The translations under genes and the position numbers were made by a program. DNA of 23,880 nucleotides from a virus: positions 1 through 23,880 of IMG/VR virus record IMGVR_UViG_3300042309_000372; one strand, 5' to 3'. The notes below the pieces were generated by a model. It was not told the origin of the DNA, ran no database searches, and saw only the letters and a program-made list of their open reading frames with translations. The first letter of the stretch is position 1. Each line of letters begins with the position of its first letter. Of the stretch, positions 10,349 through 23,880 are shown piece by piece.

Positions 10349-13228
10349 ATGGAATTTATAGGCTCTGATTATCAAACTAAACCTCTCGACAGTAGTATGC
10401 AAGACGGTAAGCTTCTAGACTTACCTAAGCTTGCTGACGCTTCTGCTAACAGTATTAGACAGTCTATCGGAGAGGTGCAAAGAATTAACAGCACCGCTTC
10501 TAACGCTGATGCTGAAGCTGCTGGACGTAAGGTAGTGGTGCAACCAAAAGAAGGCGGCGGTCTTGTTGGCGCTCTTGCTGGTCTTGGCGAAGTTGCTGTA
10601 AAGTATACAGAGCAGCAAGAGAAACTCGCTAAAGAGCGCAAGAAAGAAGAGATGGCGAAAGCTGAGAAAGAGTATATCATTGCAGCAAACAGGTTAGCTG
10701 CAAGCGCACCTGACTACATCAATAAAACTAACGAAGGTAGTATTGGCTACCAGAGAAAAATTGAAGAGCTTAACACTCTCTATAAAGACAAAGTAGATGG
10801 AGGTGTTCTGCAAACACAATCTTTACGGATGTACTCTCCTATACAACAGTACCAAGAGCAAGACATTACACGCCTTAGAGAAGAAGGTAAGAAGATACGC
10901 GACACAAACGTGCAGACTCTTATAACTCAGCAAATTATAACAGTAGACACCCAACTAGCTGACTTGTCAAACGAGACAGATTCTACTAAAGCTCAGACCA
11001 GAGTAGACAACGTTTACAAAGTTTTAACAGACACGTTAGTAAACTCTAAACTAGACGGCGCTGATAAAGCTGTGTTTATTAACGGCGTTGTCACAGCTAT
11101 AGGTAAATCATCTGCTGCTGGTGCGAAAATAAGAGGTGAGTTGATGGGTGCAGTCCGCGTTATTAACGACACTAATCTTCTTATTCAACAAACTGAAGAT
11201 ATGCCAGCAGAGCAGAAGAACACTCTTAGACTTGCTAGATTAGCAATACTCCCTCCTCAAATAGCTAAAGCGTATGCTGATATACTTGACCCTGCTGCAC
11301 GAAGACGAGCCGATGCTGAACTGGCGCGAAATCAGCGTGAGTTGGACAATGCTGCGAAAGAGGGTACGATTGACGCTCTTAAAGCATTTAGAATTTCAGC
11401 AGACTACAACCAATCGATGACTGCTATTTATCTTAAATCTGATGGTAACACCAGAGCCGCACTTAAAGCAGATTGGGAAAATATTCCAGCATTGAAGGCT
11501 GTTGTAGAAGCTGCTGATAATTATGACAAGGACAAAAATAAACTAGCTACTCTTGAAGGTGAAAGCAGAGCACTCGCAAGTACTATCGCTGGACTCGGTA
11601 AGAGTGACGCTAAAGAACGTTTGAGTTGGGTGCAAGATGCTTTCAAGCTTCCTATGTTGTCACTTAATGTAAGTGTTGCACAAGAGTTACAAGAAGCTGT
11701 AAAAAACTACACTAAAGCACTTGCTCAAGGTACTCCAGCAGAAGTACAGAAGGCACAGCAGGAAGTAGAGAAGTTTAACAAAATTGCGCTTGATGCTGTC
11801 AACGACAGGGTTAAGTTTATACAGCAAGAAATGAAGAGAGTGAACACCATTTGGCAACCACTAGATGAATTGCTAAAAGACCCAAGCAAGATAGAAGTTG
11901 CGCTCACACGCTTCAGAGAAACAACACAAAACATAAAGACAATTAGAGAGCAACGCAACCAATCTACTATGAGAGGAGAAAACCAAAATTTTAATATGCC
12001 CCAACTTGCCGAATTGCAGGTTGGGGATGTCAAGTTTCCACTTCCTTTCAAAGCAGGTACGCAAGTAACATATTCTGGTGATTACAGAGAATGGCGCGGC
12101 AACCGACAACACGCTGGTATCGACATCGCTGTACCAGAGAACACTCCACTCATATCTCCTATTGGAGGTGTAATTGCTACAGTGAGAGATGACGGTAACG
12201 AAGGGTACGGCAAATTTATCGATGTCCGCACACCTGACGGTAAATATGTCCGTTATGCACATCTTAATACGATTAATGTACGTGAAGGTCAACAAGTGCT
12301 AGCAGGGCAAGTATTAGGCGCAACTGGAAATACTGGTAGTTCTACTGGAGCGCACCTACACATGGAAGTACGCAACGACATGTACGGTGGTGTAGAAGCT
12401 ACAGAAGACCCTATTGCTTGGAGTGTGAAGAACATCAACAATGCAAACAGAGGACTCCGCGCCCGTTCAGGAGCAAACACTCCAGAAGGAGTGCCTCCTA
12501 ACGCAGTACCGTTGAGTGGTGCTTATTTACTAGACGGTAAAATTTACTACACAAACGGCTCTGCGGCAACACCTCCATACAACAATCGTAACCCTATACG
12601 CGACATACCACTGCCAGCAGACAAGTCAAAGTATGTGTCGTCACCTGAAAAGAACTACGGTTATCAAGAGTTGGCGCAAAATGCTCCGTTTCGTAAAGAG
12701 TTGCACCGAGTAGCAAAATCTCTTGGTACACCTGCTCAGTGGTTAGCAGATGCAATGGCGTTTGAAACTGGAGGTACTTTTGCTGCTTCTGTTACAAACA
12801 GTGATGGTTACACTGGACTTATACAGTTCGGTGATGAAGCTGCAAAAGACGTTGGCACTACCAAATATGAGTTAAGGCAGATGACTAACACTGAGCAACT
12901 TAAGTATGTTGAGAAGTTCTTAAAGATGCGTAGAGATACATACGGTTTAAAGTATGACAAACCAGAAGCCATCATTATGGGAATATGGGGAGGTGTAGAG
13001 CATATTCAAAGTTATGTGCGCGACCCACAATCTGTAAGGAACGTAAGAGATAAAAACATCACTTTTGCGGAGTATGTCAAACGTGTCGGAGAACACGCAG
13101 GTAGAAAATACCAAACTTCTTATGATGACAAAATTAGACCAGTTCACACTTCATACCGAGCTTCTTGCGCGATGTGCCAAGCATTACAGAGAGCAGGTAT
13201 GGGTATATTACCACATGAGGCTCCATAA
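10349..13228 (+). CDS. Internal virion protein with M23 peptidase and transglycosylase-like domains
   Basis: The 959-residue protein is probably an ejected core protein that opens the host cell wall. Residues about 80-560 are helical and charged with likely coiled coils. Residues about 575-690 form an M23 zinc endopeptidase: HAGID (H588, D592), RYAHLN (H638) and GAHLHMEV (H669, H671), so all expected zinc and catalytic residues are present. Residues about 770-895 resemble a lysozyme/lytic transglycosylase fold: AMAFETGGTF (candidate catalytic E806), then VTNSDGYTGLIQF (815-827). Two wall enzymes in one chain can cut both peptide and glycan. T7 carries a single transglycosylase domain in gp16, so this is a different distribution. 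The start ATG has only a weak ribosome site three bases after the previous stop; the end overlaps the next start by one base (TAATG). Confidence 0.85.
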   Translation: MEFIGSDYQTKPLDSSMQDGKLLDLPKLADASANSIRQSIGEVQRINSTASNADAEAAGRKVVVQPKEGGGLVGALAGLGEVAVKYTEQQEKLAKERKKEEMAKAEKEYIIAANRLAASAPDYINKTNEGSIGYQRKIEELNTLYKDKVDGGVLQTQSLRMYSPIQQYQEQDITRLREEGKKIRDTNVQTLITQQIITVDTQLADLSNETDSTKAQTRVDNVYKVLTDTLVNSKLDGADKAVFINGVVTAIGKSSAAGAKIRGELMGAVRVINDTNLLIQQTEDMPAEQKNTLRLARLAILPPQIAKAYADILDPAARRRADAELARNQRELDNAAKEGTIDALKAFRISADYNQSMTAIYLKSDGNTRAALKADWENIPALKAVVEAADNYDKDKNKLATLEGESRALASTIAGLGKSDAKERLSWVQDAFKLPMLSLNVSVAQELQEAVKNYTKALAQGTPAEVQKAQQEVEKFNKIALDAVNDRVKFIQQEMKRVNTIWQPLDELLKDPSKIEVALTRFRETTQNIKTIREQRNQSTMRGENQNFNMPQLAELQVGDVKFPLPFKAGTQVTYSGDYREWRGNRQHAGIDIAVPENTPLISPIGGVIATVRDDGNEGYGKFIDVRTPDGKYVRYAHLNTINVREGQQVLAGQVLGATGNTGSSTGAHLHMEVRNDMYGGVEATEDPIAWSVKNINNANRGLRARSGANTPEGVPPNAVPLSGAYLLDGKIYYTNGSAATPPYNNRNPIRDIPLPADKSKYVSSPEKNYGYQELAQNAPFRKELHRVAKSLGTPAQWLADAMAFETGGTFAASVTNSDGYTGLIQFGDEAAKDVGTTKYELRQMTNTEQLKYVEKFLKMRRDTYGLKYDKPEAIIMGIWGGVEHIQSYVRDPQSVRNVRDKNITFAEYVKRVGEHAGRKYQTSYDDKIRPVHTSYRASCAMCQALQRAGMGILPHEAP

Positions 13229-16200
13229 TGTCTAACGTAATTAAAGAGTACCAAGAAGCACTCAATACAACACCTCCATTAAAGGTTAATATCGCTCCAG
13301 CGTTTACACCTCCTGCTGGTGTACAAGACCCTGCGTCACCACCTACTCCAACTATACCTGCTTCAGCATTTCCATCTGCACCTACTCAAGCATCACCTAT
13401 TCCAGAGCAGCCGCAGATTCAACCTACGACATCTTCATTGTTGGAAGTGCCTCCGACACCAACTGGAGACACAGCACTCTCATATGGTGAAACAGTGTCG
13501 CGTCTGTCTGCACAATCAGCGCAAGAAATTCAGAAAATATTGGCTGAGTCTGGACAACCTAAACCGAATGAGGTGCAAAAGCAACTTCTTGGAAGCTCTA
13601 ACCCTATCCAGATAGACCCTAAACTTACTTCACAAAACAACCCGTTTAAGAGTAGTCGAGAGCCGCGCAACGCAGCAGAACGTTTAGCGTTTGAGCCTCC
13701 TGTGCTTCCTAATGGTATGCGTAATGCTTTCTCAAACCCTAACGCAAGAGCAGCGTTAGCAGCAGGTATCTCTAAAGGAGAGTACCTAGACTATATTCAG
13801 TCTTTGCGTGATAAAGGCGCACAGTATGTTGGGTTTGGTGAGCGTGACGTTGACAATGGAGGGTTTACTAACGTAACTGGACAGCGCGTAATAGAGACAG
13901 AAGACTTTACTGGCTTGAGTGCCGACCAGATACGTCAGAAGATGAAAGACCGTACAGGTTTTTACTCTACTCAACGTGCTTTTAACCAGTCGTTTTTACC
14001 ATTTTTAGGTGACGACAGAGGTAGTCTGGAGACATTGTTCGGTGTTCTTGCTTTACCTGCAAACTTGGTCAGAGGTGTAACTGCTGACATAGTAATTAGA
14101 CCTGCTGCTGCTTTGATAAGTGGTGGATTTGATGTAGAAGCAATTAAGAAAGCTTACGAAGAAATGCGCCCAACTAGAGGAGGCACTTTCACGGGTGCTG
14201 CTTGGCACGGTGAGCAGTTTCAATCTCTAGCTGTCACTGGCGAAAAAGGAAAACCATTCAACCCTTTTGCTGCTGTAAGAGATGATAAGAACTTGCTACA
14301 AGTAGGTGGCGCATTTCTATTCGATTTGGGTGCAGACCCTTTAAACTTTGAAGTAGGAAAAGCTTTCAACAGATTTAGACGCAACACCGTTGCACCTCCT
14401 CCTATCACTCCAGAGGTGCTGCCCCCTGTACGCGAACTACCTCCATCTAATGTTGCAGGTGTCCTACCAGAAGCGCGTACAGTAGATGTACCAAGTGTTG
14501 TAGATTCTCCAATTACTCCAAGAACACCTCCTACACCTGAGAGGGTGTTGGTTACACCTAATCGTGAAGCACCTTCTAGAGTGTACTTGCCTGAAAACAC
14601 TGTCGCGCAAGATGCAACAACTTCACAAACTACAGTTGGTCGTACTGTCGCGCAAAGTGACACAGCCGCACAAAACATAACCACAGTAGAAGGTGCTACT
14701 CAGGTAAATGACATAACTGTACCTCAGAAAAGAGCAGAACCTGAGCTTGCTGCTTCCTATGATTCTTTGGCACGTTATGAACCATCTGAAGTGGTGTTCC
14801 CTGTACCGCGCGAACCTTATACACCTCCTGTAGTCCGTTATCACGGCTCTTCTTCCCCAGTGACAGAGTTAAAGAACGACTTCTTTAACAAAGATAACAT
14901 CTACGGTAATGGTTTCTATACTACAAGAGACAGGTCAGTAGCTGAGACGTACCAGAAAAAGGGAGCTTCTGAAGGTACTGGTGAAGGATACTTATATCAA
15001 GTAGATTCATCTAATGATAAGCTTTTTAATCTAGATGATGTGATACCTGCACAAATAAGAGAGAGTGTAAGGCTTAATGCACCAAACTCTGGTAGGCTTG
15101 GTGTTCTGTACAAAGAAGCTGAAAGGTTACTGAACGGTGGTAAGAGTTATGGTCTTGGTGGAAAAGTTGTTACATCTACAGCCGAGTTGTTTGACGCAGT
15201 GCGTATATTCAGTAAAAGAGTGACTGTAGAAACTGGTGAAGACGGCTTTGCTAAGTTTGTCGATTCGTTTAAACCAGAACTACAGAAGTCAGGATACACA
15301 GGATTCACGCACGAAGGAGGTAGGCTCACTAGAGGTAAGCGTCACCAAGTAGATATTCTCTGGAGTCCAGAAACGTCAGTGAAACTGTCTCAACTAAATG
15401 TACCGAAAGTTGAGCCAGCAGATGTGCAGTTGTACAACAATGTAACTGCACTCTTTAATGACTCACCTCAACTACCTGTTGTACAGAACCTACTTCGCGC
15501 CGTTGTTGAGCAGACACCTACACCTCAAACAGTTTACCAGAACCGCATTTTACAGGAAGTTGCAGAGTACGGACGTACTGGTGAACTTACACCCAACATC
15601 GCAGTATTGAAGGGTGCTACTCCAGACGAAGTTCGCGCTATCGTACAAGACAAGTTGGAGGTGATGCGCGACACTCCTTTAGTTGTACCACGATTAGAAG
15701 TGCAGCCGATTACAATCCCGAAGCTGGAGTTCGCATTCCAAGGTAAAACAGGAGGTCGCGTCACAAGAGGTGTAAGACCTAGCAAAAGAGCAAGTGCAAG
15801 AGACTCAGCACTTGATGAGTGGGTGGTTAAGTTTGACAATTGGTACACCTCAAATAGAAGACCTGAGTATATCAGGACAGGAGCAACTGGTTCTGACTTT
15901 GAGCCACTGATTAACGCCTACATTCGTAAAGGAGACTACTTAGTCAATGGTGAGAAAGTAGACGCAATCACATTTGCTAACATCTCTGTGTCTGAAGACG
16001 TAAGAGGAAAGGGGATCTTCTCAGACATCCTCAAACGTACAGAGGAGAAGTATCCTGACAAGGTATTAGTTATTGAAGAAGTCAATGAAAGCTCTGCTGC
16101 TCTAGCGAAGAAAAATGGATTTACTGTTGACAGCACAAACCCAAACAATTGGGTGAAAGTACCTCCAGACAAACCTGTACCAACTAGTAAACCTGTTACT

Positions 16201-17643
16201 GTGGTTGAGATGTATCATGGAGGTGCAAATAAGATAGAGAAGCTTGATGACACATACAGGTCTGTGGACAATTTGTACGGTAACGGTCTCTACACTACAG
16301 AAAATATCGAAGTTGCAAATTCGTACAGGGGTAAAAACGCTGTTGACAAGACAGAAGAAGGGTATTTATACAAACTGCAAGAAATAACACCTCAAAAATT
16401 ATACGACTTAGACAATCCTTTAGTTGCTGGCACTCCTGAATACACAGCAGTTAGAAAGACTTTAATAGAGTACGCTAAAGTAGATGGTGGAGAATTTACT
16501 GGTGTTGCTAGGCATATACTCAAAATGTTTCGTAATGGTCAAGTGCCAAAGCTTACTGAGATTTTTAAGTCTGGCAGACCACTAACTAAGGACTCTGCTA
16601 AATACGCAGCCTTTGTTGACTCTTTTCGTACAGAGTTAGAAAAGCTTGGCTACAACGGTTACACCCACACAGGTGGTAGGAGTATAAGAGGTTTCATAGA
16701 CCATAAAGTAAACATATACTGGAACTCTGAGAATGCGTTGCGTTTAGAGCAACTCGAACCAAAACCAGTACCAACTAGTAAACCTGTAGTTGTCACAGAT
16801 TCAGCAATTGTAACTGTTGCTGACTTGCAAGACGCTGCTAAAGGTATTGGCACTCTTGGTGAGGTGTCTCAATGGTCTGTGCGCGGCGACTTCATTACAC
16901 CACTCAAGGAAGTGTTAAACGCTGTAGACGACCTCGGCTTAGACGTACTCAACACTCCTGCACTATCCAAGATGGTTAAAGGTGGTATCGGCAAACTATC
17001 CAACAAAACAGTGGAAGGTGTTGCATCTTCACTCCAGAAGGTGTCTCTTGAGACTGCGGAAGATATCGCTAAAAGTATCTTTAACGCACTGTGGCGCAAA
17101 TCTACACCAGACCAGAAAGAGATTATACTTGGTAAAATCTCTGCTACTCGTCTGGAGCAGCTTGGTTTGGAGAGGGTGCAAACAAAGATAACACCTCCTA
17201 CAACTCCTGCACCACTTCAGTATGTTCAAGCTGGCGTGTTAGATGAGGTGACTGTATCTGCTTATCACGTTGTCAATGACTCGCAAGTACCTATTGAAGA
17301 TTTGTACCAAGCAATGATGAGAAGTGCTGGTTTTAGTGCGCGTGAGGCGCGTGAAGCTGGCGGTCATTTTATCACAGAACAGATAGCTTTCACAGGTGCA
17401 GTCACTGATAGAAACCTTAAGACACTTATAACTTTAAAGAGTTTGTCCGTAGAGTCACCTGTAAAGCAGAAGTGGAGCAGTAAGATGCTTCAGCAAATAT
17501 GGGAAGTAGCAACACCAGAACAGAAAGCCTACATCATGAAAAACGTAGACAACTTAGAGCAGCTAGGTCTAGAGCGTATCGCGCGTTCAAATGTAATTGA
17601 CGACCATCTACCACCAGAAGGAGTATTTGACACACCATGCTAA
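13228..17643 (+). CDS. Giant virion-associated protein: ART-like, GNAT-like, ART-like
   Basis: The 1471-residue protein sits among the internal virion genes and looks like a multi-effector 'polyvalent' protein. Residues 1-75 and about 390-535 are Pro/Thr-rich linkers. Residues about 150-385 are unassigned, with a possible membrane-seeking stretch (LETLFGVLALPANLVRGVTA, 267-286). Residues about 535-723 and 991-1177 are two related ADP-ribosyltransferase-like domains: YHG (538-540; 996-998), DNIYGNGFYTT and DNLYGNGLYTT, GYLYQV / GYLYKL, FVDSF, and a shared GGR-x-x-RG segment. Between them, about 865-977, is a GNAT acetyltransferase-like domain with VRGKGIFSDIL as acetyl-CoA loop and ESSAALAKKNGF as motif B. 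Residues about 1198-1454 hold two helical repeats ending LEQLGLER. The third acidic residue of a typical ART triad is not obvious. GAGG precedes the ATG. Activity is inferred, not shown. Confidence 0.75.
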   Translation: MSNVIKEYQEALNTTPPLKVNIAPAFTPPAGVQDPASPPTPTIPASAFPSAPTQASPIPEQPQIQPTTSSLLEVPPTPTGDTALSYGETVSRLSAQSAQEIQKILAESGQPKPNEVQKQLLGSSNPIQIDPKLTSQNNPFKSSREPRNAAERLAFEPPVLPNGMRNAFSNPNARAALAAGISKGEYLDYIQSLRDKGAQYVGFGERDVDNGGFTNVTGQRVIETEDFTGLSADQIRQKMKDRTGFYSTQRAFNQSFLPFLGDDRGSLETLFGVLALPANLVRGVTADIVIRPAAALISGGFDVEAIKKAYEEMRPTRGGTFTGAAWHGEQFQSLAVTGEKGKPFNPFAAVRDDKNLLQVGGAFLFDLGADPLNFEVGKAFNRFRRNTVAPPPITPEVLPPVRELPPSNVAGVLPEARTVDVPSVVDSPITPRTPPTPERVLVTPNREAPSRVYLPENTVAQDATTSQTTVGRTVAQSDTAAQNITTVEGATQVNDITVPQKRAEPELAASYDSLARYEPSEVVFPVPREPYTPPVVRYHGSSSPVTELKNDFFNKDNIYGNGFYTTRDRSVAETYQKKGASEGTGEGYLYQVDSSNDKLFNLDDVIPAQIRESVRLNAPNSGRLGVLYKEAERLLNGGKSYGLGGKVVTSTAELFDAVRIFSKRVTVETGEDGFAKFVDSFKPELQKSGYTGFTHEGGRLTRGKRHQVDILWSPETSVKLSQLNVPKVEPADVQLYNNVTALFNDSPQLPVVQNLLRAVVEQTPTPQTVYQNRILQEVAEYGRTGELTPNIAVLKGATPDEVRAIVQDKLEVMRDTPLVVPRLEVQPITIPKLEFAFQGKTGGRVTRGVRPSKRASARDSALDEWVVKFDNWYTSNRRPEYIRTGATGSDFEPLINAYIRKGDYLVNGEKVDAITFANISVSEDVRGKGIFSDILKRTEEKYPDKVLVIEEVNESSAALAKKNGFTVDSTNPNNWVKVPPDKPVPTSKPVTVVEMYHGGANKIEKLDDTYRSVDNLYGNGLYTTENIEVANSYRGKNAVDKTEEGYLYKLQEITPQKLYDLDNPLVAGTPEYTAVRKTLIEYAKVDGGEFTGVARHILKMFRNGQVPKLTEIFKSGRPLTKDSAKYAAFVDSFRTELEKLGYNGYTHTGGRSIRGFIDHKVNIYWNSENALRLEQLEPKPVPTSKPVVVTDSAIVTVADLQDAAKGIGTLGEVSQWSVRGDFITPLKEVLNAVDDLGLDVLNTPALSKMVKGGIGKLSNKTVEGVASSLQKVSLETAEDIAKSIFNALWRKSTPDQKEIILGKISATRLEQLGLERVQTKITPPTTPAPLQYVQAGVLDEVTVSAYHVVNDSQVPIEDLYQAMMRSAGFSAREAREAGGHFITEQIAFTGAVTDRNLKTLITLKSLSVESPVKQKWSSKMLQQIWEVATPEQKAYIMKNVDNLEQLGLERIARSNVIDDHLPPEGVFDTPC
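14830..15396 (+). other. ADP-ribosyltransferase-like domain 1 (coding)
   Basis: This segment encodes residues about 535-723 of the giant protein. It has the order expected of the H-Y-type ADP-ribosyltransferases found in phage polyvalent proteins: strand with YHG (His for NAD ribose), then GNGFYTTRDRSVAETY (Tyr for nicotinamide stacking and the following helix), then GEGYLYQVD, and late HEGGR and VDILWSPE. It pairs closely with domain 2 downstream. The last acidic catalytic position is not clear, so it may have atypical chemistry or bind NAD without transfer. Confidence 0.6.
15820..16158 (+). other. GNAT acetyltransferase-like domain (coding)
   Basis: This segment encodes residues about 865-977 of the giant protein. 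ITFANISVSEDVRGKGIFSD contains a strand followed by the R-G-K-G pyrophosphate-binding loop of GNAT motif A, then a helix (ILKRTEEKY), a strand (VLVIEEV) and motif B (NESSAALAKKNGFTV). This order is typical of GNAT folds. It lies between the two ART-like domains and is followed by a short Pro/Thr linker. The target is unknown. Confidence 0.65.
16177..16196 (+). repeat. 20-bp direct repeat, left copy, flanking ART-like domain 2
   Basis: The 20 bases GTACCAACTAGTAAACCTGT are found here and again at 16768-16787, with starts 591 bp (197 codons) apart and in frame. Both encode a VPTSKP linker. The pair brackets the second ART-like domain. Confidence 0.85.
16198..16758 (+). other. ADP-ribosyltransferase-like domain 2 (coding)
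   Basis: This segment encodes residues about 991-1177 and is a diverged copy of domain 1: MYHGGAN, DNLYGNGLYTTENIEVANSY, TEEGYLYKL, FVDSFRTELEKLGYNGYTH, GGRSIRGF, VNIYWNSENALRLEQL. It is flanked on both sides by identical linker DNA. Duplication inside one protein suggests dose or target diversification. Confidence 0.6.
16768..16787 (+). repeat. 20-bp direct repeat, right copy, flanking ART-like domain 2
   Basis: This is identical to 16177-16196 and in the same frame. It could permit loss or gain of the domain-2 cassette by recombination without breaking the reading frame. Confidence 0.85.
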
Positions 17644-21816: not shown

Positions 21817-22247
21817 AGTACTTTATTTCGCAGGTGTCTACACCTCAGCAACTAGCAACACCTAACGCCAACAATCAAACTGTAGATTTGAATGTCATAC
21901 TCGCGTTAATTGTAGGAGGTGTAGGTGCTCTCGGTATTCCGAAGTTGGTGCAGATGTTTGTAGCTGACAAAGTTGACGGTTCAAAAGCAGAACGCCGCCG
22001 TGACGACATTGTATTGGAGAGTGTTCTTGAAGTCAACAAAACGATGCTGAAAGCAAGCGCTGACAACTATCTAAAGATGATGGAGTTCACGCAAACACTC
22101 GTCAGTGAAATCTCGATGATGCGCGAAGTCATCTCTAATAACACCAACGTTATGGAGAAGGTGCGCGTAGCAGGTGAGGAGTTAAAAGAAGAGATGCACT
22201 TTATCAAAGTGCAGATGTCTGCGCCACGCAACAACGATATAATGTGA
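21813..22247 (+). CDS. Single membrane-segment protein, holin or spanin candidate
   Basis: The 144-residue protein has a short polar N-terminus, one hydrophobic segment (LNVILALIVGGVGALGIPKL, residues 26-45, continuing VQMFVA), a basic patch (KAERRRDD) and then a long charged helix to the C-terminus likely to be a coiled coil. This layout occurs in one-span holins, inner-membrane spanins and some virion membrane proteins, and the sequence does not separate these. It is the last + strand gene, next to the terminator region, where lysis genes often lie. The start ATG is in an ATGA overlap with the previous stop, with GAGGAAG about 6 bases upstream, so the start is firm. No endolysin gene is adjacent in the window. 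Confidence 0.6.
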   Translation: MKYFISQVSTPQQLATPNANNQTVDLNVILALIVGGVGALGIPKLVQMFVADKVDGSKAERRRDDIVLESVLEVNKTMLKASADNYLKMMEFTQTLVSEISMMREVISNNTNVMEKVRVAGEELKEEMHFIKVQMSAPRNNDIM

Positions 22248-22493: not shown

Positions 22494-22528
22494 AAAGCCG
22501 CAGTCAATTAAGATTGCGGCTTTCTTTT
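22494..22528. terminator. Bidirectional intrinsic terminator
   Basis: AAAGCCGCA (22494-22502) pairs perfectly with TGCGGCTTT (22515-22523). Pairing continues inward through GTC/GAT (one G-U) to a 6-base loop AATTAA, giving a 12-pair stem. On the + strand TTTCTTTT follows; on the - strand the other side gives a TTTT run. It lies between converging genes, so it can end both transcripts. Confidence 0.9.
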
Positions 22529-22558: not shown

Positions 22559-23761
22559 CTACCATGAGTTACTCCTCTCAATTGCGCGGACGAAATCTTC
22601 AACTTTTTTTACACCACTCCAGTAGATGAGCTTAGACTTGGAGAGTGTGCGCTTTGCACCAGTAATGTCGAGCTTGTACAACAACTCCGATGTGCGGTTA
22701 GTCATGCACTTCTCGTCACTCCAGTACGAGCCGTCTACCCAAATCATGCGCTCAACTTGTGGATTGTCAAGCAACAGTTTGTAACACCAAGTACCGTCCA
22801 TGTCGCCAGCGATGATGACGGTGCTGATGTCGTACAAAGAACACCTCTTCCCAAGTACGGCGGCGTAGAACTTTTGCGCGTCTTCACGTTCAGTGATATC
22901 AGCCCACATATCTCCGTCTGAGTATTCGCGACAATAATCTTTGCCGAAATACTCCATCTCTCGTTTGTCGCGTACGCCGTTAACAACAAACCACTTCGGC
23001 AATCCGTTGTAGTGAGGTGCGCTTACAACGTTAAAGTCATCGCGGATAGTAGAAACACCACTGAGGAGGGTGTTATACAACGAAGCGTAAGAGGAGCAAG
23101 AAGGGCTGAAATCGGGCAGAAATAGTATAGAAGGATTGGCGCGGTCTTTCTGAGAGGTGTTGATAGTGACATCGCGGTGTGTTTCAAGCCGCGCTACAAA
23201 CTTGTCTCCGTCAAGCTGGTCATTGTCGTGAACCATACCACCTTCCATCAACGTATAGATGGCGCGTTGTATGCGCTTGATGTCATTGATGGAGGTGCTG
23301 CCTTTAGGGAGTGAAATAGCAGCGCGTGGAAACCATCTGTTGATGTTGGTGCTGCTACTTGCCACAGGAGGTGTAACAACATCGTTTGACACCTCTTCTT
23401 CTGCATCGCCGAACTCAAGTTCGTCATAGTCAGGGTTGATGAGTTCTTCATCGATTAAGTACTCAACTTGTTGTGGGTCAACTTGTAAGTCTTCTTCTTC
23501 AACGATTTCGTCAAACAACAAAGAGACGATAGCAGGTGCAGTGTCGCGCAACTCATCAAGTATTGCGTCCTTCATTGGAGTGTGAGGCTCATCGCGCAAG
23601 CTGTTTAAGTACTCATCTTCTTCGTCAAAGTTGATAGGTTCATCATTAAATGAAGGTAAAGTTTTAGTATCACAAATACCACACACATCATCGTATGTGT
23701 AAACATCACACTCAACCCAAACCTTACCAAACAAATCTTGACGCGCGTAATAGTATTTCAT
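22559..23761 (-). CDS. Acidic protein with von Willebrand A (MIDAS) motif, CobT-like layout
   Basis: The 400-residue protein has an acidic region (about 39-128; FDEEDEY, FDEIVEEEDLQ, DYDELEFGDAEEE) and a C-terminal alpha/beta half. SILFLPDFSPSCSS (211-224) holds the metal-site pattern D-x-S-x-S (D217, S219, S221) at the end of a hydrophobic strand. A later strand VIIAGDMDGT (315-324) is where the second metal-site Asp usually lies. An acidic middle followed by a VWA domain is the layout of CobT-type proteins, which work with a MoxR/CobS-type AAA+ ATPase; such pairs are known in phages. No ATPase is visible, but the partial gene upstream runs in the same operon. GAAGGTG lies about 9 bases before the ATG. 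An N-terminal CGIC pair (27-30) is unexplained. It is not a virion gene by position. VWA assignment is moderate; partner and role are inferred. Confidence 0.65.
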   Translation of the reverse strand: MKYYYARQDLFGKVWVECDVYTYDDVCGICDTKTLPSFNDEPINFDEEDEYLNSLRDEPHTPMKDAILDELRDTAPAIVSLLFDEIVEEEDLQVDPQQVEYLIDEELINPDYDELEFGDAEEEVSNDVVTPPVASSSTNINRWFPRAAISLPKGSTSINDIKRIQRAIYTLMEGGMVHDNDQLDGDKFVARLETHRDVTINTSQKDRANPSILFLPDFSPSCSSYASLYNTLLSGVSTIRDDFNVVSAPHYNGLPKWFVVNGVRDKREMEYFGKDYCREYSDGDMWADITEREDAQKFYAAVLGKRCSLYDISTVIIAGDMDGTWCYKLLLDNPQVERMIWVDGSYWSDEKCMTNRTSELLYKLDITGAKRTLSKSKLIYWSGVKKVEDFVRAIERSNSW

Positions 23762-23763
23762 TG

Positions 23764-23880
23764 TTAAAACACCTTCGTGATAAACTTGTTAGCGAAATTA
23801 CCTTTCTGAAGAATCTCCATATCTTCAGGTTCTTTGCACAGGTGTGCATACATCAAGCACTCAACATCCTTAACGTTGGT
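23764..23880 (-). CDS. C-terminal 38 codons of an unidentified gene (right-truncated)
   Basis: On the - strand an open frame enters from the right edge and ends with TAA at 23766-23764, two bases before the ATG of the VWA-like gene. The visible end includes ECLMYAHLCKEPEDMEILQK followed by GNFANKFITKVF. The tight spacing shows one operon with the VWA-like gene. The fragment is too short to name. A MoxR-type AAA+ ATPase would fit the usual partner of a CobT-like protein, but nothing in these 38 residues proves it. Confidence 0.6.
   Translation of the reverse strand, partial: TNVKDVECLMYAHLCKEPEDMEILQKGNFANKFITKVF

Follow-up and report, generated by a model that had tools for sequence, protein, structure and literature searches.

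An AAA+/VWA-like gene pair with an LPDxSPSC motif in tailed phages, a candidate MoxR-type protein-remodelling machine

Pairs made up of an AAA+ ATPase and a VWA or CobT-type protein are already in print for phages and archaeal viruses (PMC8651126, PMC9503304, PMC7911831, PMC7824862, PMC2147016), so the kind of gene pair considered here is already known. According to two of these accounts the phage pairs have mostly been filed as CobST and taken to be vitamin-B12 genes (PMC8651126, PMC9503304), and phage cobST clusters are described as widespread (PMC8651126). How such a pair can work is described for NorQD, where a finger of the VWA adaptor is reported to enter the AAA+ pore while the adaptor C-terminus contacts the ring, and where ATP turnover twists and stretches the adaptor linker with the result that the target is remodelled (PMC13036017); the MIDAS of NorD is reported to be required for the target but not for NorQ binding (PMC9976466). 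Among viruses, the account of ATV p618/p892 concludes that there is a chaperone role in tail development (PMC4124505), a survey of jumbo phages proposes a virion-assembly role for their MoxR-vWA pair (PMC7824862), and orf66/orf63 of Bacillus phage 0305phi8-36 are presented in their paper as a metalloprotein chaperonin (PMC2147016). Conflict systems of MoxR-vWA type with EAD1 have also been described (PMC7159879). Here we compare with these systems a phage gene which, at a probability that we put at roughly 0.6, would encode the adaptor of a MoxR-type remodelling machine made up of two gene products, belonging to an LPDxSPSC family of its own and having a phage-coded complex as its likely target.

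The window, that is the whole stretch of DNA analysed, is an entire IMG/VR record of 23,880 bases, probably a fragment, and the features of interest are collected in Table 1. The 400-aa VWA-like gene is opposed in direction to the virion operon, whose last + strand ORF ends at 22247, and with a terminator-like hairpin between the two the convergent arrangement that had been proposed from the sequence is borne out (it should be noted that the hairpin search of the region gave two sites against a shuffle mean of 1.2, and flagged them on the + strand only). The original prediction had also read a D-x-S-x-S site (D217, codon 23113-23111) and a later GDMDGT behind an acidic region; all of these are present at those positions, the interval 22790-23130 covering both motifs and residues 37-130 holding 33 D/E and 3 K/R among 94. 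Elsewhere in the window, a 959-aa protein (10349-13228) is a possible virion lysin: Pfam detects an M23 peptidase domain in it (E 1.5e-24) and, very weakly, a transglycosylase towards the C-terminus (E 0.13). A 1471-aa virion-operon protein (13228-17643) has two similar stretches with GNGFYTT and GNGLYTT contexts, which we take to be reminiscent of ADP-ribosyltransferase-like domains, plus what is presumably a GNAT-like stretch, and it could be an ejected multi-domain protein.

Table 1. Positions of the features discussed, in coordinates of the 23,880-base window.
Feature	Positions	Strand	Remark
VWA-like adaptor gene (candidate) P0001, 400 aa	22559..23761	minus	homologue directly after AAA+ gene in relatives
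MIDAS-like motif 1, D217-F-S-P-S-C222, at end of predicted strand 1 (211-217)	23096..23113	minus	
GDMDGT, residues 319-324, second acidic site just past predicted strand 4	22790..22807	minus	
Acidic stretch, residues 37-130	23372..23653	minus	mostly low model confidence
AAA+ ATPase gene, final 38 codons and stop	23764..23880	minus	rest outside window
Terminator-like hairpin, 12 pairs, between two convergent operons	22494..22523	+	pattern match only

An AAA+ gene had been predicted to lie to the right of position 23880. A search with the VWA-like protein recovered two IMG/VR contigs (L001 and L002; 97.7-97.8% identical over the overlap) that extend beyond this point, and both carry a full AAA+ ATPase of 451 aa (L002:8643-9998 and L001:7170-8525, both outside the window) which ends 2 nt upstream of the VWA-like gene in the same orientation. 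The partial frame at the right edge of the window corresponds to the last 38 residues of this protein, and the AAA+ gene whose absence from the phage genome was to count against the prediction is thus seen in the continuing contigs. All 12 aligned ATPases have identical residues at Walker A, Walker B, sensor 1 and the arginine finger (we take GKPGTGKT to be Walker A, CIDEID Walker B, TSN sensor 1 and RRC the arginine finger). The best Pfam family is AAA_5 (dynein/MoxR class, E 3.4e-18). Two results tell against a clear-cut MoxR label: the best PHROG is the clamp-loader family phrog_168 (1.1e-12), and when the ATPase profile was compared with the PDB, the best 60 of 166 matches were Hsp104/Clp and p97/Cdc48 types, none of them MoxR-class. 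The podovirus-like ATPases have at least about 195 extra, poorly conserved N-terminal residues (L002:8643-9227) that are absent from the large-phage ATPases L021-L030, where it is instead the VWA proteins that have long Gln/Pro-rich or acidic linkers. In one contig (L006:5579-7209) the AAA+ frame upstream of the core seems, unlike that of its relatives, to be split into a 147-aa ORF and then a 468-aa ORF in another frame, either by a frameshift or through a different start.

Searching with the AAA+ protein gave six contigs in all, the two above and L005-L008 (57-76% identity over the best segment), and in all six of these podovirus-like contigs the VWA-like gene comes directly after the AAA+ gene. 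A scan with the aligned AAA+ proteins brought in 13 more contigs of 39.7-205 kb, with an ATPase identity of 31-34%, and a VWA-like gene lies beside the ATPase in 13/13 of them; this count is made up of 11 in which the scan found an LPDxSPSC gene next, L032, which was added, and L031, which is incomplete because the contig ends before the motif, and judging from coordinates and motif lines it probably includes near-copies (L026/L028/L029 and L025/L027/L033). hhalign shows the podovirus-like and large-phage VWA groups to be homologous (probability 98.3, E 1.5e-14, 139 columns), with 8 of the 13 aligned sequences only 14-17% identical to the window protein. Eighteen columns of the 13-row alignment are invariant, including D217, S219, S221 and D320, with D322 nearly so; the D, S, P, S and C of DxSPSC are the same in 13/13, and neither phage group shows any variation in LPDxSPSC, in the Asp that follows strand 4 or in the catalytic motifs of the ATPase. 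As the DxSxS pattern arises in 1109 of 5000 shuffles of the 400-aa protein it is not significant alone, and the case therefore rests on conservation and context. The family is hardly visible in reference collections: tblastn with the SPSC VWA proteins gave no match in INPHARED, nothing scored above cut-off in Pfam or NCBIfam, PHROG matches were weak and were taken as chance, and a pattern scan of the species-genome collection gave 46 stretches with 0 confirmed VWA relatives. A cellular origin was considered and set aside, with no VWA relative confirmed in that collection and with the four ATPase loci inspected by eye (of 19) looking FtsH-, Lon- or CDC48-like.

The VWA domain, a six-stranded Rossmann-like a/b fold, is said to be defined by an Asp ending strand 1 and another ending strand 4 (PMC7159879), and in the fold predicted for the 400-aa protein the invariant D217 lies at the end of strand 1 and the invariant D320 just after strand 4. 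Two models were made. In the first (7 rows, mean pLDDT 57.7) the C-terminal domain, about residues 210-400, is mostly at pLDDT 70-90 with the strands and helices in VWA order; in the second (13 rows) the mean pLDDT is 62.0 and the pTM 0.55, the order of elements is unchanged, and in both residues from about 57 to 153 are mostly unreliable. With the first model the top PDB hit in Foldseek was the NorD VWA (E 2.4e-3, with none below 1e-3), and VIA placed one designed protein first (Z 9.7) and then mostly VWA domains, among them Rea1-MIDAS (Z 8.4, rmsd 4.0, 165 aligned), MDN1-MIDAS (8.1, 3.9, 167), CMG2 (8.1) and NorD (7.7, rmsd 4.0, 157 aligned). The BFVD list is headed by an unnamed protein and a glycosyltransferase, with virus proteins labelled VWA at ranks 3, 6, 8 and 22, the last being ATV ORF892. 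With the second model, which has the better confidence, NorD was only seventh in Foldseek (E 0.065), while in VIA acetyl-CoA synthetases led (best Z 8.1), MDN1-MIDAS standing at rank 13 (7.7) and NorD at rank 21 (7.2).

Profile comparisons added little to this. The only Pfam VWA profile to respond was VWA_CoxE, sub-threshold, in 2/12 members (best E 0.0084, L008, residues 183-222), and PDB sequence searches with the SPSC VWA profiles returned no VWA. In hhalign against 42 control ORFs and seven VWA targets, of which two are one and the same protein, the targets were not separated from the controls by the whole family or by the large-phage rows; by the podovirus-like rows alone they took four of the top five places (E 0.04-0.06 against 0.09 for the best control). 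Thicker alignments gave E 0.055 for the CoxE-like VWA, with motif Asp on motif Asp in the best alignment, and 0.097 for CobT, but CobT run in reverse reached 0.038, and with the large-phage rows 0.0051, so that both stand at decoy level, and a link by sequence to CobT or another VWA was rejected. In HMMER with shuffled decoys 0/11 VWA proteins exceeded the decoys. The complete MIDAS pattern DxSxS-T-D is not found either: DxSxS and D are invariant, but the Thr is not conserved, no column between residues 245 and 300 holding S or T in at least 7 of the 13 sequences. Taking predicted structure and conservation together, we assign the C-terminal half of the protein with moderate confidence to a fold that is probably VWA-like, and a non-VWA fold is unlikely.

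The two groups of phage ATPases make up one clade (97/93) of a 29-row tree, sister to MadB-like ATPases and three cyanobacterial MoxR ATPases, and a 97/93 branch parts them from CobS, RavA and a Rhizobium MoxR; the tree was rooted for drawing only, and because several branches are long the exact placement is unsure. With the family AAA+ profile, three MadB-like ATPases score 51-57 bits and three cyanobacterial MoxR 46-51, whereas CobS proteins reach 34.8 and 30.6 bits (those of the large phages themselves) and 2.9 (Rhizobium); two Clp-type Rhizobium ATPases, at 30.2 and 26.4 bits, come out about equal to the large-phage CobS. The nearest NCBIfam family is MadB_ATPase (NF047784; E 3.2e-7 to 5.8e-9 in 4/4 ATPases scanned), but as the scores (29.8-35.6 bits) are far under the curated cut-off of 475 we do not claim membership, noting that an Acinetobacter MadB-like protein taken as a yardstick itself reaches only 125 bits against that cut-off. 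MadC (NF047783) had no match in the eight family VWA proteins scanned, and a literature search on "MadB" found nothing relevant. By tree and profile scores the phage ATPase is grouped with the MadB-like and cyanobacterial MoxR ATPases and away from CobS. On cyanobacterial plasmids (L101, L102 and L104) a MoxR-type ATPase gene is followed by a VWA-type gene, and in L102 and L104 these genes are beside EAD1-domain genes of conflict-system type. The INPHARED record "Acinetobacter phage MD-2021a" (CAKLQH020000018.1, L097) looks like bacterial chromosome around the match (rnd, ycgL, trpB), and "phage" matches from this record therefore need care.

Because the VWA-like gene sits directly behind an AAA+ gene in several phages, the pair is probably a protein-remodelling machine. 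By analogy with NorQ/NorD and related systems, the motor role would fall to the phage ATPase and the adaptor role to the 400-aa protein: the ATPase would form a hexamer on whose ring the VWA domain docks, the adaptor would hold the target protein through its MIDAS-like face, its acidic N-terminal part or both, and ATP-driven motion of the ring would then twist or stretch the adaptor.

Two other views of what these proteins are have to be set against this. Were the C-terminal domain some other Rossmann-like fold, with DxSPSC as a structural turn, this would agree with the unrelated proteins that lead the second-model searches, with the unconserved MIDAS Thr and with the lack of a significant profile match to VWA; we nevertheless give it little credence, since the motifs are placed at strands 1 and 4, the first-model fold matches are rich in VWA, and an AAA_5-type ATPase adjoins the gene in every contig. 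The other view is that of a phage CobST, in which the pair would join a host CobN-like subunit and drive cobalt insertion for B12, along the lines put forward for tailed viruses in PMC8651126. The gene pairing is the same, Rhizobium CobT likewise has an acidic stretch ahead of its C-terminal DxSxS domain, and the ATPase has a weak match (7.1e-6) to phrog_249, "porphyrin biosynthesis". Against it, a search of 4 podovirus-like contigs for CobT_C (PF11775) gave no match at E<=10, and the matches of this family in 3/10 large contigs always fell in another frame of about 1140 aa, leaving 11 of 14 contigs unmatched; CobN was found in 0/14 phage contigs searched (these are possibly fragments, and host CobN could serve); and there is the branch between the ATPase and CobS, together with the 2.9 bits of Rhizobium CobS and the fact that the large phages' CobS score no better than about level with the Clp-type Rhizobium ATPases. 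Moreover, canonical CobST pairs are present in addition to the SPSC pair at L072:2140-7062 (G014), L073:1592-6481 (G016) and G011:C1:19945-24783, where G011 seems to be a near-copy of G016 and its CobS and CobT were detected by search. Two of these three canonical CobT genes were inspected, and they have the motif DQSGSM and are preceded by a 499- or 487-aa ATPase. In the canonical pair of G014 the VWA gene matches both CobT_C (3.1e-12) and phrog_17276 "CobT" (3.9e-11), and the ATPase has phrog_249 as a match (6.6e-41); tblastn with this CobS-like ATPase gave matches in 110 INPHARED records, cyanophage CobS among them. A "finger" segment before strand 1 that, by eye, could be aligned with CobT over about 40 residues ungapped was tried and rejected as not beyond chance: among 111,515 windows, with the podovirus-like rows, scores as high occurred in 8.7-8.9% for phage CobT and 97.5% for Rhizobium CobT. 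A cobaltochelatase role is accordingly very unlikely, and of the original prediction of a CobT-type partner of a MoxR/CobS ATPase, the VWA-type partner of a MoxR-kind AAA+ protein is supported while the strict label "CobT-like" is not supported.

For the remodelling machine itself, gene position points to a phage-coded complex as target, virion assembly or maturation being slightly favoured over replication and recombination proteins. In 4/13 large contigs there is, 2.8-3.0 kb upstream of the pair and on its own strand, a match to a major-head-like family (phrog_2522), with none in the other 9; for L026, which is not among the four, hmmscan gave a head match at 2.8 kb (E 7.8e-4). ATV p618/p892, with its part in tail development (PMC4124505), is a precedent for such a target, and a virion-assembly role is what has been proposed for the jumbo-phage pair (PMC7824862). 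A search with the PF03237 terminase matched 0/4 podovirus-like contigs, which should have a terminase, and so it is uninformative (the window's own terminase matches phrog_38). What counts against a virion-assembly target is that in podovirus-like phages the pair sits in the replication operon. In L002 this operon runs from a primase-helicase through two unassigned genes, DNA polymerase A, a small gene, ATP ligase, a Sak-type annealing protein, a further small gene and a Cas4-like exonuclease (phrog_1990, 1.2e-21) to the AAA+ gene, which overlaps the exonuclease gene by 4 nt, and the VWA gene, and by resemblance the order is the same in the visible parts of L005-L008. This would suit a role in remodelling the replication and recombination machinery, by disassembling or activating the exonuclease, the Sak-like annealing protein, the polymerase or the helicase, a reading that involves the same machine and differs only in the target. 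We consider it unlikely, as the pair is not among recognisable replication genes in the five large-phage loci inspected (of 13), and, apart from unassigned genes, its neighbours in L026, the only ones scanned, show no more than one weak match to a head family and weak ones to tail fibres. It is also rather improbable that the pair is a phage counterpart related to the MoxR-vWA conflict systems and acts as a switch against the host or rival elements: cyanobacterial MoxR genes are among the nearest AAA+ relatives, and two of these have EAD1-domain genes as neighbours, but no third gene common to both phage groups was seen beside the pair in the loci inspected, and PADLOC gave weak matches to the ATPases alone.

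The SPSC pair appears to be a separate, unnamed family that resembles known phage pairs and is not of the vitamin-B12 CobS/CobT type. In the literature searched on phage MoxR/VWA pairs (jumbo phages, ATV, Hardycor1, the Bacillus phage and others) we did not find the family described, although it may go under another name. We would further suggest, tentatively and at somewhat less than even odds, that tailed phages carry here a further and so far unnamed MoxR-type/VWA machine, distinct from CobST, whose dedicated task is to remodel phage proteins and which occurs in small podovirus-like as well as large phages and in some large phages beside canonical CobST. If this is true, a pair that lies outside CobS and coexists with CobST would mean that gene pairing alone does not indicate cobalamin, and would argue for testing such pairs as general protein-remodelling machines; the incomplete MIDAS (SPSC with no conserved Thr) would imply that the target is gripped differently.

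Compared with the known systems, the pair shares with phage and archaeal-virus CobS-CobT (phrog_249, phrog_17276, PF11775; described in PMC8651126) the two-gene AAA+/VWA cluster and the C-terminal DxSxS, but belongs to another AAA+ clade, has SPSC in place of SGSM, and its SPSC protein is without a CobT_C match. In MadB/MadC and MoxR/CoxE-like pairs the next gene after the ATPase is likewise of VWA type, and is so annotated in some relatives, but the MadC-type partners are not significantly similar in sequence to the phage SPSC VWA proteins, and the Acinetobacter VWA partner has D-V-G-G-S-M where the phage family has D-x-S-P-S-C. The ATV, jumbo-phage and 0305phi8-36 pairs also combine a virus MoxR ATPase with a VWA protein or a second MoxR subunit according to their accounts (PMC4124505, PMC7824862, PMC2147016), a likeness drawn from description, with the fold search alone touching ATV ORF892 (rank 22). 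ATV p618-p892 is a virus-encoded MoxR ATPase with a partner, in an archaeal spindle virus (PMC4124505), and in the jumbo-phage group 2.2 MoxR-vWA pairs the VWA is, as reported, fused to a metallopeptidase, unlike the SPSC protein (PMC7824862). NorQ-NorD, as described in PMC13036017 and PMC9976466, shows the same division into motor and adaptor as that proposed here, and the NorD VWA is the top Foldseek match of the first model, a likeness that comes from the fold search. NorD has DxSxS-T-D, with its T and D reported to be needed for nitric oxide reductase maturation (PMC9976466), whereas that T is not conserved in the phage SPSC family.
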